Assembly: GCA_902785355.1 (NCBI GenBank)
Contig: CACZYF010000004.1
Location: 1-60,753 of the forward strand
Length of the DNA: 60,753 nucleotides
Source of the DNA: an uncultured Ruminococcus sp.
GTDB lineage: Bacteria; Bacillota; Clostridia; Oscillospirales; Acutalibacteraceae
Direction: 5' to 3'
Shown in pieces: positions 48,254 through 53,186 of this stretch. The position numbers were made by a program, and so were the translations under genes. The stretch's first letter is position 1. The number at the start of each line of letters is the position of its first letter. The notes below the pieces were generated by a model. The model had not been told where the DNA came from. It saw only the letters and a list, made by a program, of their open reading frames with translations, and did not search any database.

Positions 48254-48364
48254 CTTGTCACCTCAATAGTTATTGCCGGTGTTCCGGTAAGGTTAGTATG
48301 GTCAAAACGGAATGAATCATGCACAATTTACGATCAAACTAATAATATAAGGTGAGGTGAGTTG

Positions 48365-48658
48365 ATGTACATATTCTGTATGATACTATTGGTATTTTTC
48401 GCGATCATCGGGCTGAGCTCCTTTATCTCGGCGGTGCTGAACATGTCCTATAAAGGGAAAGGCGAGCTATTGATCGTGCTGAACGATTTGAAAGCCGATA
48501 ACGCCGAATTAAGAATACGACGAGCGGCAAGGCTCTGCAAAAGCACAAGAGGCAGTTGTATTCTCTGTGTATGTCGGGAAAACGACCCGGCTTATGATAT
48601 CGCAAGGCTCATGCAGCGGGAATACCCTTTCATTAAAATCTCGGATTCCGTCGCATAA
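48365..48658 (+). CDS. Small membrane protein of unknown function
   Basis: 97 residues. An N-terminal membrane segment (MYIFCMILLVFFAIIGLSSFISAVL) is followed by a cytoplasmic region with strand-helix character: GELLIVLNDLKADNAELRIRRAARLCKSTRGSCILCVCRENDPAYDIARLM. The ILCVCRENDPAYDIA block looks like the core of a small Rossmann-like or ferredoxin-like fold, and three cysteines cluster there. GGTGAGGTGA lies five bases before the ATG. It is a single gene with a strong terminator. I do not recognise the family. Confidence 0.65.
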   Translation: MYIFCMILLVFFAIIGLSSFISAVLNMSYKGKGELLIVLNDLKADNAELRIRRAARLCKSTRGSCILCVCRENDPAYDIARLMQREYPFIKISDSVA

Positions 48659-48700: not shown

Positions 48701-49729
48701 TTACAGCTTGATTTGAAAATACTCGTCGCCGAGAACGTCGGCTATCTCTTTAAGGTGACCGGTGCGCTTATCGCGGAGCTTAAAATGCTGGACAAGTCCG
48801 TACCCGGGGTACTCGTTGCCCTCGACCATCACGGGACCGTTCACCGAGAAGGCGACGTCCCAGCCAATGTAACGCACCTGAGGAATACGCTGATGCGCCT
48901 CGACGCACATATCGAACGCTTCCTTTACGCCGTGGATGTAAACGTCCGAAAAGCGCTTGCCGGTCATAGGGTGGGTGTCGTAGACCTCGCCGTAATCATC
49001 AACGACGTTGCTGTCAATCTTACCGTCGGCGCCGATGCTGAAATACAGGTCGTTGGTACAGCCGATAACCTCGGCTTCATCCTGATTGATGCGCATGGCG
49101 TTGGCGATCATTGTCGCTTTTCCGTCCTTATACAGGGTGATGATGCGGAAGGAGCAGACGACGTAGGGATTGATCTGGTTCAAGTCCTCATGCTGGATGA
49201 TCGCGTCCTCTACGAGCAGCTGACCGTTCTTCCTGAGCTGATGATAGAGCGCTTCGGCGTCGGCAATATCCGAGACGCGGATCTTGGTGATGCCATGACC
49301 GCCTTCTCCGTGATTTTCTTTCGCGAAAACCGTCGTTTTATCACTCAGAAACGCCTTGAAATCTTCGGCGGAGCTGACCTGTAAATTGATGAAATCACGT
49401 CCGAGATATTCTCTGAACAGCTCGTCGAAGATCAGCTTATCGTTGAGAACGACCAGGTATTCCTCGCTGTTGAGGTAAGCGAGCAGCTTATAGAACTTCT
49501 TCGCGGTCACGAAGGTATCCTTCTCGCGGGAGTTCAGCTCGATGAAATTACAGCGGAAATAGTCCGTGTAACCTGTACCGCGGGTGAGAAAATTCCACAG
49601 CATATCCATACGAATGTAAAACTTGCTCTTACCGGTATTTTTATGGATGATCTCCACATGCTTGTCGAAGCGTTCGCGGTTGATATCCTTGAATTTATTC
49701 ATCAGCCATTTTGTAGCCGACATCGCCAT
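48701..49729 (-). CDS. ATP-grasp protein, sugar-transfer-associated type
   Basis: 342 residues. The C-terminal half has the ATP-grasp layout: TTVFAKENHGEGGHGITKI as the phosphate-binding loop, QLLVEDAIIQHEDLNQI as the adenine hinge, and IGWDVAFSVNGPVMVEGNEYPGY as the metal-binding Glu-x-Asn region. This matches the ATPgrasp_ST family (PF14397), found in capsule and cell-surface gene clusters. It should ligate a carboxylate to an amine through an acyl phosphate. It is 13 bases after the GatD-like gene and is last in the MurT-like operon. Its substrate is unknown; that context favours a cell-wall or envelope target. Confidence 0.75.
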   Translation of the reverse strand: MAMSATKWLMNKFKDINRERFDKHVEIIHKNTGKSKFYIRMDMLWNFLTRGTGYTDYFRCNFIELNSREKDTFVTAKKFYKLLAYLNSEEYLVVLNDKLIFDELFREYLGRDFINLQVSSAEDFKAFLSDKTTVFAKENHGEGGHGITKIRVSDIADAEALYHQLRKNGQLLVEDAIIQHEDLNQINPYVVCSFRIITLYKDGKATMIANAMRINQDEAEVIGCTNDLYFSIGADGKIDSNVVDDYGEVYDTHPMTGKRFSDVYIHGVKEAFDMCVEAHQRIPQVRYIGWDVAFSVNGPVMVEGNEYPGYGLVQHFKLRDKRTGHLKEIADVLGDEYFQIKL

Positions 49730-49742
49730 AATTATCCCTCCG

Positions 49743-50453
49743 TTATCCCTGAGCGCGCTCGCTGAGCTTTCTCAGGGTTGTTTCGTAGCCTTTTTGCTCG
49801 TAGGTCAGATGAGCCGTTTCGGGCTCTCTGCCGAGGATCAAAGCAGTGATATAGGTCAGAAAATGAGGATTCTTCATTAATACGGGCCCTGTGAGGTGTG
49901 TGCCGAAGTAGTTTTTATAACGGATACCCTCGGTCTTGTCGTCATCGGAGTTCCCGATACCGAACTGCGTGTGGAACAGGGTATCGTTGATCCCGAAGAT
50001 CACGCTTGACTTGTTGATGAAGCCGACCAGCGGACGATCGAGGAAGGACGCGGTGCAGATGATATCGGACGTCATGCGGACGCCGCTCTTCTCGATGGTC
50101 TCGTACTTAAAAAAACCTAAGCCACTGTATTCCGTACCCTTTCCGTCGGTAATCAGATTACCGAGCAGCTCGAAGGAATTACCCGTCATCAGCAGCACCT
50201 TTCCGGATTCGATATAATCCTTCAAGGCGTCTTTGTACTTTACGATGTCCTTCAAAACAACCTTCTGATTCTTCTCGGTACCCGAACCGATGAAGATGAA
50301 GTCGTAGTCGGAAAGGGTCGCTTCATCAGACAGGCTGAGCTTATCGACGGCGACCTCTTCCCCGCTCTTTTCCAGCATCCGCTTCACGGCGCTTATATTG
50401 GCGTAATCGCCGTAGAGGTTCATGATATCGTAGTATAAATGCAGCAGCTTCAT
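49743..50453 (-). CDS. GatD-like class I amidotransferase protein lacking the catalytic cysteine
   Basis: About 236 residues. The N-terminus LLHLYYDIMNLYGDYANI and IFIGSGTEKNQ match GatD, the glutaminase subunit of lipid II isoglutaminyl synthase. At the nucleophile elbow, where GatD has ICGGYQLLG, it reads T90-G-N-S-F-E-L-L-G98 with no cysteine. Where GatD has GTYLHGPLLPKNP, it reads GTHLTGPVLMKNP, so the catalytic His position is T188 with a His two residues earlier. The rest, including GIGNSDDDKTEG, is well kept, so it is a degenerate glutaminase rather than a random relic. The start ATG 50453 has GAGGAGG upstream inside the MurT-like gene's last codons. It may deliver another amine or act as a scaffold. 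Confidence 0.8.
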   Translation of the reverse strand: MKLLHLYYDIMNLYGDYANISAVKRMLEKSGEEVAVDKLSLSDEATLSDYDFIFIGSGTEKNQKVVLKDIVKYKDALKDYIESGKVLLMTGNSFELLGNLITDGKGTEYSGLGFFKYETIEKSGVRMTSDIICTASFLDRPLVGFINKSSVIFGINDTLFHTQFGIGNSDDDKTEGIRYKNYFGTHLTGPVLMKNPHFLTYITALILGREPETAHLTYEQKGYETTLRKLSERAQG

Positions 50454-50454
50454 C

Positions 50455-51780
50455 TTAAACCTCCTCAACGTCCGCTAGGAACTTATCTTTATCCGAGAAG
50501 CAAGTGATCGCGTAGATATACTCCTTACGACCGCTGTCGAGGTAACCTACCGCGTCGTCTATGCTCTCGTACAGGTGAATCTTGTCTTTCGGTATATCGG
50601 TATAAGAGAATCGGGCGGCGAGGTCGTTGACATAGGTGCCTGAAAGCACGATCTCATGGATGTTCTCGTCCTTAAGCATTTCAAAATCAATATCCCACAG
50701 CCACGACACGTCGCCGGTAAAGTACTTGCGGCTAATCGCGTCGACGATGATCAGCACGTCGCACCCGCCCTCGCAGGCGCACGCCACACGCAGGGAGTGG
50801 TCGTAGGACACGCTGTTCTCGTGCTTGCTGGTGAGCAGCGTACCCTTGCGCGAGCCGAGGTTGAAGTTGATGACTCTGCCGTTTTTCAGCACATAATCAT
50901 TCATCTCGAGGGCGATTTTCTCGCCGTCGATACCAACCAGAGAAGCAACCGTGAACGCCGCTAAGATATTATAGATATTATAGAGTGATTTCAGTGCTAA
51001 GGAGATATGATATTTGCCGTTGATCTCTAGCTCGCCCTTCTTCATATCGACTGCTGTGATGGTGTAATCGGTATCCTCGCGGCGATAGCCGCAGGCGGTA
51101 CAGCGATAGTGACCGATATGGTTATAGTGATGAGTGGTATAGACCATCGGCGCCTTGCAGATCGGACAGTAAGCGCCGTCATTATAGACGCTGTCAAGCT
51201 CCTTGGTATCGGTAGACAGCTCGTCCGCTCCGAACCAAACTACATTCTCTCTGTCGTGACCGAAGACGGACACCAGCGGATCGTCGGCGTTTAGGATCAG
51301 GCGGGTGCCGTCGTGAACGCTGTCGGCGATCGCGTCAAATACAAACTCGGGGTGACCGTTGCGGGTCAGCTGATCGCGGTACAGATTCGTGATGACGTAA
51401 TCCGTCACATTGATATAGCTGAACGTCTTGCGCGCGTAGCGCTCGTCACTCTCGATCAGCAGAATATCGCTCTTGACCTTGCCGGATAAGGTCGCGTTGG
51501 AGAGCACCATCGTGGTAACGCCCTCGATCTGGTTGGAGCCCTCGCGGTTCCAAGCGACCGACTTGCCCGCGCGGGTCAGGATATGGGCGATCATCTCGAC
51601 GGTAGAGGTCTTGCCGTTACTGCCGGTGATGGCGATGATGTACCGGGGCAATTCCATGCGCTTCAAGATATCGGGACAGAGCTTCAAGGCGACCTGTCCG
51701 GGCATACTGCTGCCCTTGCCGATCAGCTTTCCGACAAAGCGCAGAAGCTTGCATATCAAAATGGTCAGAAACTTTTTCAT
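50455..51780 (-). CDS. MurT-like Mur ligase
   Basis: About 441 residues. The Mur ligase P-loop is ITGSNGKTST (51-60), the middle domain carries the MurT zinc ribbon (C205-PIC, C227-TAC) and RDQLTRNGH replaces the usual RDQLDRYGE. The C-terminal DUF1727 domain keeps DVSWLWD (357-363), but the block that reads KNPAG in MurT is KHENS here (319-323). MurT adenylates the D-Glu carboxylate of lipid II and accepts ammonia from GatD. The altered motifs and the cysteine-less partner suggest another nucleophile or substrate. The start ATG 51780 follows AGGAA. It is the first gene of a three-gene operon with its own promoter. Confidence 0.8.
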   Translation of the reverse strand: MKKFLTILICKLLRFVGKLIGKGSSMPGQVALKLCPDILKRMELPRYIIAITGSNGKTSTVEMIAHILTRAGKSVAWNREGSNQIEGVTTMVLSNATLSGKVKSDILLIESDERYARKTFSYINVTDYVITNLYRDQLTRNGHPEFVFDAIADSVHDGTRLILNADDPLVSVFGHDRENVVWFGADELSTDTKELDSVYNDGAYCPICKAPMVYTTHHYNHIGHYRCTACGYRREDTDYTITAVDMKKGELEINGKYHISLALKSLYNIYNILAAFTVASLVGIDGEKIALEMNDYVLKNGRVINFNLGSRKGTLLTSKHENSVSYDHSLRVACACEGGCDVLIIVDAISRKYFTGDVSWLWDIDFEMLKDENIHEIVLSGTYVNDLAARFSYTDIPKDKIHLYESIDDAVGYLDSGRKEYIYAITCFSDKDKFLADVEEV

Positions 51781-52019: not shown

Positions 52020-53186
52020 ATGACTGACACCTATACCATCATCAATCTGAGCAATCTGAAGCATAATGTCGAAGCACTGCTCGCAAAATATCCGGAATAT
52101 AAGACCCATATCGGCATCGTCAAGGGCGACGCCTACGGTCACGGCTACGAAGCGATAAACGCCCTGTATGAGGGCGGGATCCGCTATTTTGCAGTTTCCT
52201 CGGTGGATGAAGCGGAGGATTTTCGCCGCCATAACAAGTCCGCAAAGCTCCTCTGTCTTGAGCCTGTCGCGATGGATCGTATCGACGACGCTGCCGAGCT
52301 GAACCTGACCTTAGCGATCCCCGATCTCGATTACCTCGAACAGCTTCTGAAGAATCCCTGCAAGCACGCCTTCTCCCTGCATCTACAGATCGACTCGGGC
52401 TTTAACCGTCTCGGCTTCAAGGACAAGCAGGAGGTGAAGAAGGCGGCTGACCTGATCGACGCCTCGATCCATACCTTGGAGGGCATTTACCAGCACTACG
52501 CCACAGCCGGCATCTTCGACCCCTATTATGACGCCCAGACCGCGCGCTTCAAGGAGCTGACTTCCCTGCTCGATCTGAGCCGTATTCCGCTGGTACACCT
52601 GGGCAGCGGCATCGCCATGATGGCTCATCCGAAGGACGAGATCGCTACCGCGACCCGCATGGGGCTGGTGATGTACGGTTATAACATCTCTCCCGAGAGC
52701 TACGGCGGCGGTATCAAGAACAAGCTGCGCGCCGCCAGGGACAAGCATTTCCAGAAGAAATATCATCTCAGCGAGACCATCCGTGACGTTGAGATCGATC
52801 TTAAACCCGCGATCTCGATGAAGACCCGCATCATCCAGCTAAAGGACGTCAAGGCGGGAGAACACATCGGCTATTCCGCAGGCTTTGAAGCGGCGGAGGA
52901 TATCCGGATCGCCGTACTGCCGGTCGGCTATAACAACGGTATCGGTCATAACGGCAGCGGCAGAGTCGTCGAGATCAAAGGTAAGCTGTACCCCGTCGTC
53001 GGCGCAGTCGGCATGAACATGATGTGCGTCAAGGTGGATAAGGACGTCAGCTATGATGACGAAGTCACCTTACTCGGCGGCAGAATCACCCTCGGCATGT
53101 TCTCTCGCTTCTCGGGGCTGGGACTCGCGGAGGTCATGCTCGGCGTCGGTAAGAACAACAAACGCTATTACGTACAGGATCAATGA
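52020..53186 (+). CDS. alr: Alanine racemase
   Basis: 388 residues, PLP-dependent fold-type III enzyme that makes D-alanine for peptidoglycan. The PLP lysine lies in IVKGDAYGHG near residue 38. HLGSG, RMGLVMYGY and HIGYSAGF (the active-site Tyr region) follow, with GMNMMCV near the C-terminus. One insertion near residues 225-260 (SPESYGGGIKNKLRAARDKHFQKK) makes it slightly longer than typical. AACGGAGGG precedes the ATG. It diverges from the MurT-like operon and overlaps recD2 by four bases. Confidence 0.92.
   Translation: MTDTYTIINLSNLKHNVEALLAKYPEYKTHIGIVKGDAYGHGYEAINALYEGGIRYFAVSSVDEAEDFRRHNKSAKLLCLEPVAMDRIDDAAELNLTLAIPDLDYLEQLLKNPCKHAFSLHLQIDSGFNRLGFKDKQEVKKAADLIDASIHTLEGIYQHYATAGIFDPYYDAQTARFKELTSLLDLSRIPLVHLGSGIAMMAHPKDEIATATRMGLVMYGYNISPESYGGGIKNKLRAARDKHFQKKYHLSETIRDVEIDLKPAISMKTRIIQLKDVKAGEHIGYSAGFEAAEDIRIAVLPVGYNNGIGHNGSGRVVEIKGKLYPVVGAVGMNMMCVKVDKDVSYDDEVTLLGGRITLGMFSRFSGLGLAEVMLGVGKNNKRYYVQDQ

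Follow-up and report, generated by a model that had tools for sequence, protein, structure and literature searches.

The window analysed here, a stretch of 60,753 nucleotides (contig CACZYF010000004.1, positions 1 to 60,753, from the uncultured Ruminococcus sp. assembly GCA_902785355.1), encodes a pair of proteins related to MurT and GatD, the subunits of lipid II isoglutaminyl synthase, followed by an ATP-grasp ligase; on direct reading the three genes lie on the minus strand and almost touch each other (Table 1). Sequence comparison places the pair in a single branch, in which the glutaminase residues have been lost, the ligase core and the subunit interface are kept (in clades A and B), the former glutamine pocket is under strong selection and a change in a MurT loop is coupled to the loss. 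We propose, with a probability of about 45%, that the pair could be an active ligase working on the alpha-carboxyl of D-Glu with an amine that is not ammonia from glutamine and would most likely be an amino acid or a diamino acid; the activity, the substrate, the amine and the role of the ATP-grasp enzyme are those that we infer.

Loss of the glutaminase site and changes in the ligase

A first-pass annotation of this DNA had read TGNSFELLG at the nucleophile elbow of the GatD-like protein and GTHLTGP at its histidine loop, without the catalytic Cys and His, and direct reading bears this out. In a phmmer alignment with GatD from S. aureus and S. pneumoniae, and with solved GatD (9sq9, 5n9m, 6gs2, 6fqb), Gly91 falls on the nucleophile Cys (C94 in S. 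aureus) and Thr188 on the catalytic His (H189); the Arg that captures glutamine (R128) is present as Arg126. Statements attributed to published work in this text rest on excerpts of the papers cited. S. aureus complexes carrying C94A, H189A or R128A lose glutamine deamidation (PMC5871853), and catalysis is abolished by D349N in MurT or C94S/G in GatD (PMC6113224). No obvious substitute nucleophile is found in the GatD-like protein: clade A, to which the window pair belongs, has no strongly conserved Cys column, the only one above 30% reaching 69% and being Ser in the window; a nucleophilic cysteine elsewhere in the protein, foreseen as an objection in the annotation, is rejected on these alignment columns.

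The MurT-like partner retains, as had also been noticed, the P-loop, the zinc ribbon (Cys207, Cys210, Cys229 and Cys232) and DVSWLWD, in which Asp359 keeps the position of S. aureus MurT D349; the Asp-Glu pair, the acceptor Asn and the MurT_C domain are present as well. Two loops depart from the canonical form. RDQLTRNGH replaces RDQLDRYGE, a loop that in S. pneumoniae lies at the GatD interface and could form an ammonia channel (PMC6085368). The second change, described earlier as KHENS for KNPAG, is real, but it is not a plain substitution, since alignment reveals an insertion of two residues (K-HE-NS versus K--NP); the K-N-P loop of S. pneumoniae may touch the ATP ribose (PMC6085368).

Both proteins are recognised by the general domain models, the MurT-like one by Pfam MurT_C (76.2 bits, cut-off 25) and Mur_ligase_M (51.3 bits), the GatD-like one by GATase_3 (53.1 bits, cut-off 27). 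Against the NCBIfam equivalog models they score 209.2 bits (NF045635, MurT, cut-off 800) and 135.8 bits (NF045636, GatD, cut-off 400). The pair may work like MurT/GatD, yet, because Cys, His, the K-N-P loop and equivalog scores are all lacking, we set it apart as a putative variant rather than a member of lipid II isoglutaminyl synthase. Annotation from Pfam domains alone would label it MurT/GatD and predict D-iso-glutamine, perhaps wrongly.

Distribution, covariation and phylogeny

In the host's family, 150 genomes were searched with GatD, and all 52 that matched were fetched and typed. The phylum sample (398 genomes, 135 with MurT_C, 30 best-scoring loci used) and the class sample (393 genomes, 213 matched; the 30 best loci, window included, and 60 hand-picked for family spread) give no estimate of prevalence. 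A scan of named records returned 527 stretches encoding a relative, the best 80 of which were kept as "named" clade-A loci; by their titles these are mostly from Ruminococcus sp. or unclassified Clostridia, with R. bromii at L135, L162 and L164 (the last from strain ATCC 27255), four Lachnospiraceae or Lachnoclostridium, and an uncultured Clostridia bacterium as the nearest (98%). Among the 254 loci scanned, MurT and GatD are adjacent on one strand in 249 (exceptions L052, L056, L190, L227 and L242); 12 of the 249 each repeat another locus of the set, leaving 237 distinct pairs. Some repeated loci remain in the 172-row trees and in the 42-row clade-A conservation set described below.

The 237 pairs fall into 91 with Cys and the K-N-P loop, 143 with no Cys and the two-residue insertion, 3 with no Cys and K-N-P, and none with Cys and the insertion. 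Thus the catalytic Cys is found in 0/143 branch members versus 91/91 canonical pairs, and the MurT insertion in 143/143 versus 0/91. The question posed at the outset, whether a cysteine-less GatD always accompanies a MurT without KNPAG, is answered positively for the whole branch, the exceptions outside it being L261, L262 and L267, where Cys is lost and K-N-P is unchanged. Losing the glutaminase alone therefore does not bring the MurT insertion, and these three may be natural candidates for free-ammonia amidation, or intermediates. The branch comprises 110 members of clade A, of which 79 were contributed by the named scan alone, 29 of clade B and two each of clades C and D. Its Cys column holds Gly in 142 members and Ser in 1; at the His column, clade A has Thr, Ile or Ser (110/110) versus His in 87/91 canonical pairs, and the residues that the column counts list for this position include no His for any branch member.

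Trees of MurT and GatD both split the branch off exactly (supports 0.979 and 0.984), which argues for one ancient split inherited together rather than for repeated coincidence. When rooted with MurE/MurD, the branch (support 0.992) is nested in canonical MurT beside L267, which has lost Cys and kept His and K-N-P, and L228, which keeps Cys (0.955 for the group; deep nodes are weakly supported). This nesting suggests that the loss of Cys preceded the MurT insertion.

The 52 family genomes comprise 12 with the canonical pair, 18 with clade A, 15 with clade B, 2 with both A and B (G084 and G107), 1 with two B copies, 2 with clade C, and 2 with a Cys-less GatD-like protein and no typable MurT; 40/52 hold only Cys-less types, so that the catalytic Cys is missing from most GatD-like proteins found in the family. 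The host genome (2.23 Mb, 99% complete) contains a single MurT_C match, the window's own gene, so that the search for a canonical MurT-GatD elsewhere, advised at first reading, yielded no further MurT_C match. Clade C (L045, L055, L390, L391, L392) is a fourth, very divergent Cys-less pair, with K-xx-N-x-E-T and FTN[CA]LGP; it occurs together with the canonical pair (G814) or with clade B (G768 and G843), so that a separate function is probable. Clade D consists of L276 and L280; downstream of the L280 pair, in the same direction, lies a gene for an asparagine-synthase-like amidotransferase (PF00733).

Conservation of the core and of the former pocket

Clades A and B keep GxNGKT, the acceptor Asn, the Asp-Glu pair, the hinge Arg, the loop Lys and Asn, the four zinc Cys and the Trp that contacts GatD, each in at least 93% of counted members; in S. 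pneumoniae MurT this Trp, W360, holds GatD (PMC6085368). The glutamine-capturing Arg is found in 110/110 clade-A and 27/29 clade-B members. Residues new to the branch are R116 after the Asp-Glu pair (138/143 members) and N143 and H145 in the RDQ loop (139/143 each); S-R-[K/R]-Y precedes DxSW in all 110 clade-A and both clade-D distinct pairs, and the D359 column holds Asp in 89 and Glu in 21 of the 110 clade-A pairs.

The former active-site columns of GatD (46, chosen by the analyst; for clade A in the 42-row set) have a mean identity of 0.80 versus 0.47 for the rest of the protein in clade A, 0.71 versus 0.49 in clade B and 0.85 versus 0.52 in canonical GatD. In each of these three groups, 5000 random column sets all stayed below the pocket value, indicating that the pocket is still under selection. 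The changes are neither decay nor peculiar to one genome, both of which the annotation had named as possible refutations: there are 143 distinct members from many genera, with a conserved pocket.

ATP-grasp and diaminobutyrate genes

The tight operon with an ATP-grasp ligase described earlier does exist in the window, but it is not generally kept: the gene adjoins the pair in 11 of the best 80 (of 527) named clade-A loci, which are the window's nearest relatives. Where the flank exceeds 2.5 kb on both sides, it stands beside the pair in 7/41 distinct named clade-A loci, 1/17 other clade-A loci (the window itself) and 5/26 clade-B loci, and in 0/1 of clade C, 0/2 of clade D, 0/3 Cys-less K-N-P and 0/51 canonical loci. 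Leaving out the named loci, the branch has 6/46 versus 0/51 canonical (p = 0.009), a comparison in which the profile had been seeded with, among others, the window gene and three of the five from clade B. Genome-wide, at E 1e-40 or better, the subfamily is present in 29/51 branch genomes versus 0/12 canonical ones and 5/17 family genomes without a GatD match; by clade the counts are 13/28 for B (two genomes also carry A), 14/21 for A (two matches, G105 and G218, are partial) and 2/2 for D. Without the 11 query genomes, the branch retains 20/42 versus 0/12 canonical (p = 0.002) and versus 3/15 no-match genomes (p = 0.07). A looser link between ATP-grasp and the branch is therefore likely, since the gene recurs beside clade-B pairs and the subfamily is commoner in branch than in canonical genomes. 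In a Pfam scan of the operon partners of clades B, C and D (63 of 68 scanned, excluding five that were short or truncated at an end) ATPgrasp_ST is the commonest domain, at 4/63. Two further copies of the ATP-grasp gene (L413, L414) adjoin genes for a PcsB-like M23 peptidoglycan hydrolase and for FtsX, another cell-wall setting; one (L423) stands beside a polysaccharide flippase gene, and the clade-D pair L276 beside a Polysacc_synt/MurJ-like flippase gene.

In three clade-B loci from as many genera (L036, L038 and L050), a diaminobutyrate transaminase scoring over the NF006733 cut-off is encoded at most four genes away from the pair. Across 140 genomes it is found in 9/28 with clade B, 3/29 with A only, 1/4 with C or D, 0/3 Cys-less K-N-P, 3/20 with no GatD match and 1/56 canonical, the last being G814, which also carries the clade-C pair L391; the excess of clade B versus canonical has p = 0.0001. 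Five of 13 matches show one stop inside the match, and L050 holds an open frame of 435 aa. The transaminase adjoins an ATPgrasp_ST gene in L368, L371, L372, L381 and L382, the last two in genomes without a GatD or MurT match (G020 and G024); together the two genes may form a small, putative diamino-acid module. Ectoine is an unlikely purpose for the transaminase, as 16/17 of its genomes have no ectoine synthase match and G062 has one weak partial match. Diaminobutyrate occurs in the type-B peptidoglycan of an actinobacterium (PMC4156110), and by analogy it might be present in the wall of branch carriers too.

Proposed activity and its alternatives

In the mechanism that we favour, MurT would convert a carboxyl to an acyl phosphate, most likely the one at the alpha position of D-Glu in a lipid-linked precursor of the wall. 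The residues that hydrolyse glutamine are missing from the GatD-like subunit, and the attacking amine would therefore not be glutamine ammonia by the known mechanism; it would most likely be a small amino acid or a diamino acid, bound either in the pocket of the GatD-like subunit that once took up glutamine or at the remodelled loops of MurT, and for clade B the best guess would be 2,4-diaminobutyrate. The ATP-grasp ligase would act as a looser accessory, which may synthesise the side group, lengthen it or alter it further. We prefer an amino or diamino acid for four reasons: MurT is rebuilt with new basic residues where the nucleophile is thought to arrive; three Cys losses exist without the MurT insertion; the glutamine-capturing Arg and the pocket have remained conserved; and genes for diamino-acid and ATP-grasp enzymes accompany the branch. 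Of the earlier suggestion, a repurposed ligase that takes another amine or free ammonia and is coupled to the ATP-grasp enzyme, the first part fits these coupled and conserved changes, whereas the ATP-grasp linkage does not hold as stated.

Several points weigh against this proposal. That the pair has ligase activity at all we infer from sequence. The same Cys-to-Gly change in S. aureus GatD, C94G, leaves a complex still able to amidate lipid II from free ammonia at pH 8.5 (PMC3266927), and by analogy this favours free ammonia. The covariation goes back to a single split in an ancestor and does not represent many independent events. Among the neighbour clusters of clade A that were named, none of the recurrent ones was recognised as an amino-acid-specific gene. 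The ATP-grasp subfamily occurs also in genomes without a GatD match (p = 0.09 versus the branch), and the diaminobutyrate transaminase, absent from the window genome at the threshold used, has p = 0.31 for clade B and p = 0.75 for all branch genomes when compared with no-match genomes; the tests for both genes ignore phylogeny and are leads only. Finally, what is said of clades A and B does not extend to clade D, with P-loop GSSGKG and no hinge Arg, nor to clade C, which has Tyr for the interface Trp and lacks H145 and Arg126.

The most serious rival, on balance rather doubtful, is that D-iso-glutamine is still made on lipid II, with ammonia from the cytoplasm or from another glutaminase and the GatD-like subunit as a scaffold. 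R. bromii-like hosts live in ammonia-rich guts, and carbamoyl phosphate synthetase I is a precedent. Canonical and A or B pairs never occur together in the 150 family genomes (36 A/B and 12 canonical genomes; chance 0.03), as if one replaced the other. The C94G complex has lost glutamine use and still amidates with ammonia, so that a dead GatD can support a ligase; neither MurT nor GatD is active alone, and MurT needs GatD even with ammonia, but at pH 7.5 ammonia was used by neither the wild-type nor the C94G complex (PMC3266927). A scaffold role, moreover, leaves the conserved pocket and the glutamine-capturing Arg unexplained, as it does the MurT insertion, the new basic residues and the association with diaminobutyrate and ATP-grasp genes; L261, L262 and L267, without the insertion, look like better candidates for the use of free ammonia.

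It is quite unlikely that the acceptor is not lipid II but another carboxylate, such as that of an amino-acid-decorated surface glycan, which would fit a sugar-transfer-associated ATP-grasp enzyme. The ATPgrasp_ST neighbour and the flippase genes beside L276 and L423 point in this direction, and clades A and B coexist in two genomes, so that a different target is possible for one of them or for both; however, the acceptor Asn and the Asp-Glu pair are those of MurT, A or B pairs are never found with canonical ones in the family sample, and, in the part of the neighbour clusters that was named, none of the genes recurring beside clade A was recognised as belonging to a sugar pathway. That the GatD-like protein is vestigial, in an inactive pair or as a pseudo-subunit heading for loss, is hardly credible: catalytic residues are gone and it is more variable than MurT (39% versus 58% mean column identity), but the two frames are adjacent in 80/80 named loci and 249/254 scanned ones (12 repeats), pocket conservation is near the canonical level, and decay, which predicted no difference between the pocket and the rest of the protein, is rejected.

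Returning to a ligase that takes another amine on D-Glu, its fully specified form, in which the branch would join the alpha-carboxyl of D-Glu in peptidoglycan to an amino or diamino acid, 2,4-diaminobutyrate in the case of clade B, and use the dead subunit as amino-acid holder, is unlikely. If true, it would provide, to our knowledge, the first candidate enzyme for the branch point of a type-B-like peptidoglycan, and an undescribed wall chemistry in R. bromii-like gut bacteria. Type-B peptidoglycan, with an amino acid on the alpha-carboxyl of D-Glu, occurs for example in Eubacterium limosum, Acetobacterium and Microbacteriaceae. The branch predicts a wall modification in common gut bacteria, R. 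bromii strains being among the carriers, and would represent a natural experiment in which an amidotransferase became a different ligase. Several pathogens cannot live without MurT/GatD (PMC6085368), and the cited papers, in the excerpts used, describe it as an amidase of D-Glu only. None of the papers listed by searches of the open literature (titles, opening abstracts and selected passages; no subscription papers) describes a Cys-less GatD or this MurT loop, and among open-literature titles on R. bromii and muropeptide none concerns the R. bromii wall.

Features of the locus

Table 1. Genes and motifs of the window, with positions in the 60,753-nucleotide stretch (aa, amino acids; nt, nucleotides; ORF, open reading frame)
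Feature	Position	Strand	Basis
MurT-like ligase, glutaminase-dead branch clade A, 443 aa	50455..51786	-	Pfam MurT_C, Mur_ligase_M; aligns to solved MurT
P-loop GSNGKT (ATP site), intact	51607..51624	-	sequence read
RDQLTRNGH loop, R137-H145 (canonical RDQLDRYGE)	51352..51378	-	alignment
KHENS, K321-S325; HE inserted between Lys and Asn of canonical K-N-P motif	50812..50826	-	alignment
SRKY, S352-Y355; stands for canonical x-x-D-G ahead of DxSW motif	50722..50733	-	alignment
DVSWLWD; D359 at S. aureus MurT D349 position (third triad residue)	50692..50712	-	alignment
GatD-like partner lacking the glutaminase residues, 236 aa counted from its ATG (with a TTG start the ORF reaches 50468)	49743..50453	-	GATase_3; aligned to solved GatD
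Former nucleophile elbow TGNSFELLG, T90-G98; Gly91 at catalytic Cys position	50160..50186	-	alignment
Former His loop GTHLTGP; Thr188 at catalytic His position	49884..49904	-	alignment
Arg126, equivalent to S. aureus R128 (glutamine sequestration)	50076..50078	-	alignment; role from excerpts of PMC5871853
ATP-grasp ligase (PF14397 ATPgrasp_ST), third in the apparent operon, separated from the GatD stop by 13 nt	48701..49729	-	Pfam
alr (alanine racemase), divergent neighbour	52020..53186	+	TIGR00492, 222.5 bits, cut-off 168

The divergent position of alr, pointed out at first reading, is true of the window, but there is no sign of a general link with the branch, as this arrangement was seen only in the window, its close relatives and L060; an alr-like gene also lies three or four places off on the same strand in two canonical loci (L256 and L284). 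A RecD2-like gene recurs near clade A in 13/85 loci, and a second count gave nine loci of clade A and two canonical ones; ComF-like and MreB-like genes lie close to it. Opposite the operon, a 98-aa ORF at 48362-48658 (+), seen here only in the window and its close relatives, has no Pfam or NCBIfam match.

Comparison with known systems

Like the MurT/GatD lipid II isoglutaminyl synthase of S. aureus and S. pneumoniae, the system described here consists of a gene pair in the same order, with a Mur-ligase core, a zinc ribbon and MurT_C in one protein, a class-I GATase_3 partner, the interface Trp and the glutamine-capturing Arg. Unlike it, the window pair has neither Cys nor His, carries the K-xx-N insertion in MurT, T141, N143 and H145 in the channel loop, and SRKY, and stays below the equivalog cut-offs.

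By fold, the pair would share acyl-phosphate chemistry with MurD and MurE. The K-x-x-N-[S/P] spacing of the window resembles K-A-T-T-P of MurD L286 and Y-A-H-T-P of MurE L307-L309 and L312, from relatives of the same order, and hhalign aligned the K-xx-N loop with MurE, not with MurD. In the window genome itself MurD reads IASSP (L299) and MurE YAHNA (L321), and only the loop length matches; the likeness to these enzymes, which take amino acids, is a resemblance only. An argument on amino-acid binding by the MurD loop, drawn from inhibitor carboxyls (PMC3527612), is not used, the genome's own MurD lacking the Lys. Unlike MurD and MurE, the window MurT-like protein has no UDP-binding N-terminal domain (PMC6113224), and it has a zinc ribbon and a GatD-like partner. 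In the window's genus, MurE (the genome's own and L314-L326) has EDNSR for the usual DNPR and DYAHNA for the usual DYAHTP, which may bear on the third stem-peptide residue; a link between the branch and this unusual MurE was dropped, because the same lower score class, in which the motif was not read, is spread over clade A, clade B, canonical and no-match genomes.

The best non-MurT sequence match in the PDB is 6vr7, which we take to be the pseudomurein ligase pMurC, with an alignment that ends before the K-xx-N loop; pMurC is also the best non-MurT NCBIfam match of the MurT-like protein, at 92.5 bits. pMurC is archaeal and is not known to have a GatD partner. As for the third gene, its product, aligned with ten relatives, scores as a member of ATPgrasp_ST with 126.3 bits, above the curated Pfam cut-off of 31.4, and is set apart within this family by recurring beside a glutaminase-dead MurT/GatD pair and beside a diaminobutyrate transaminase.

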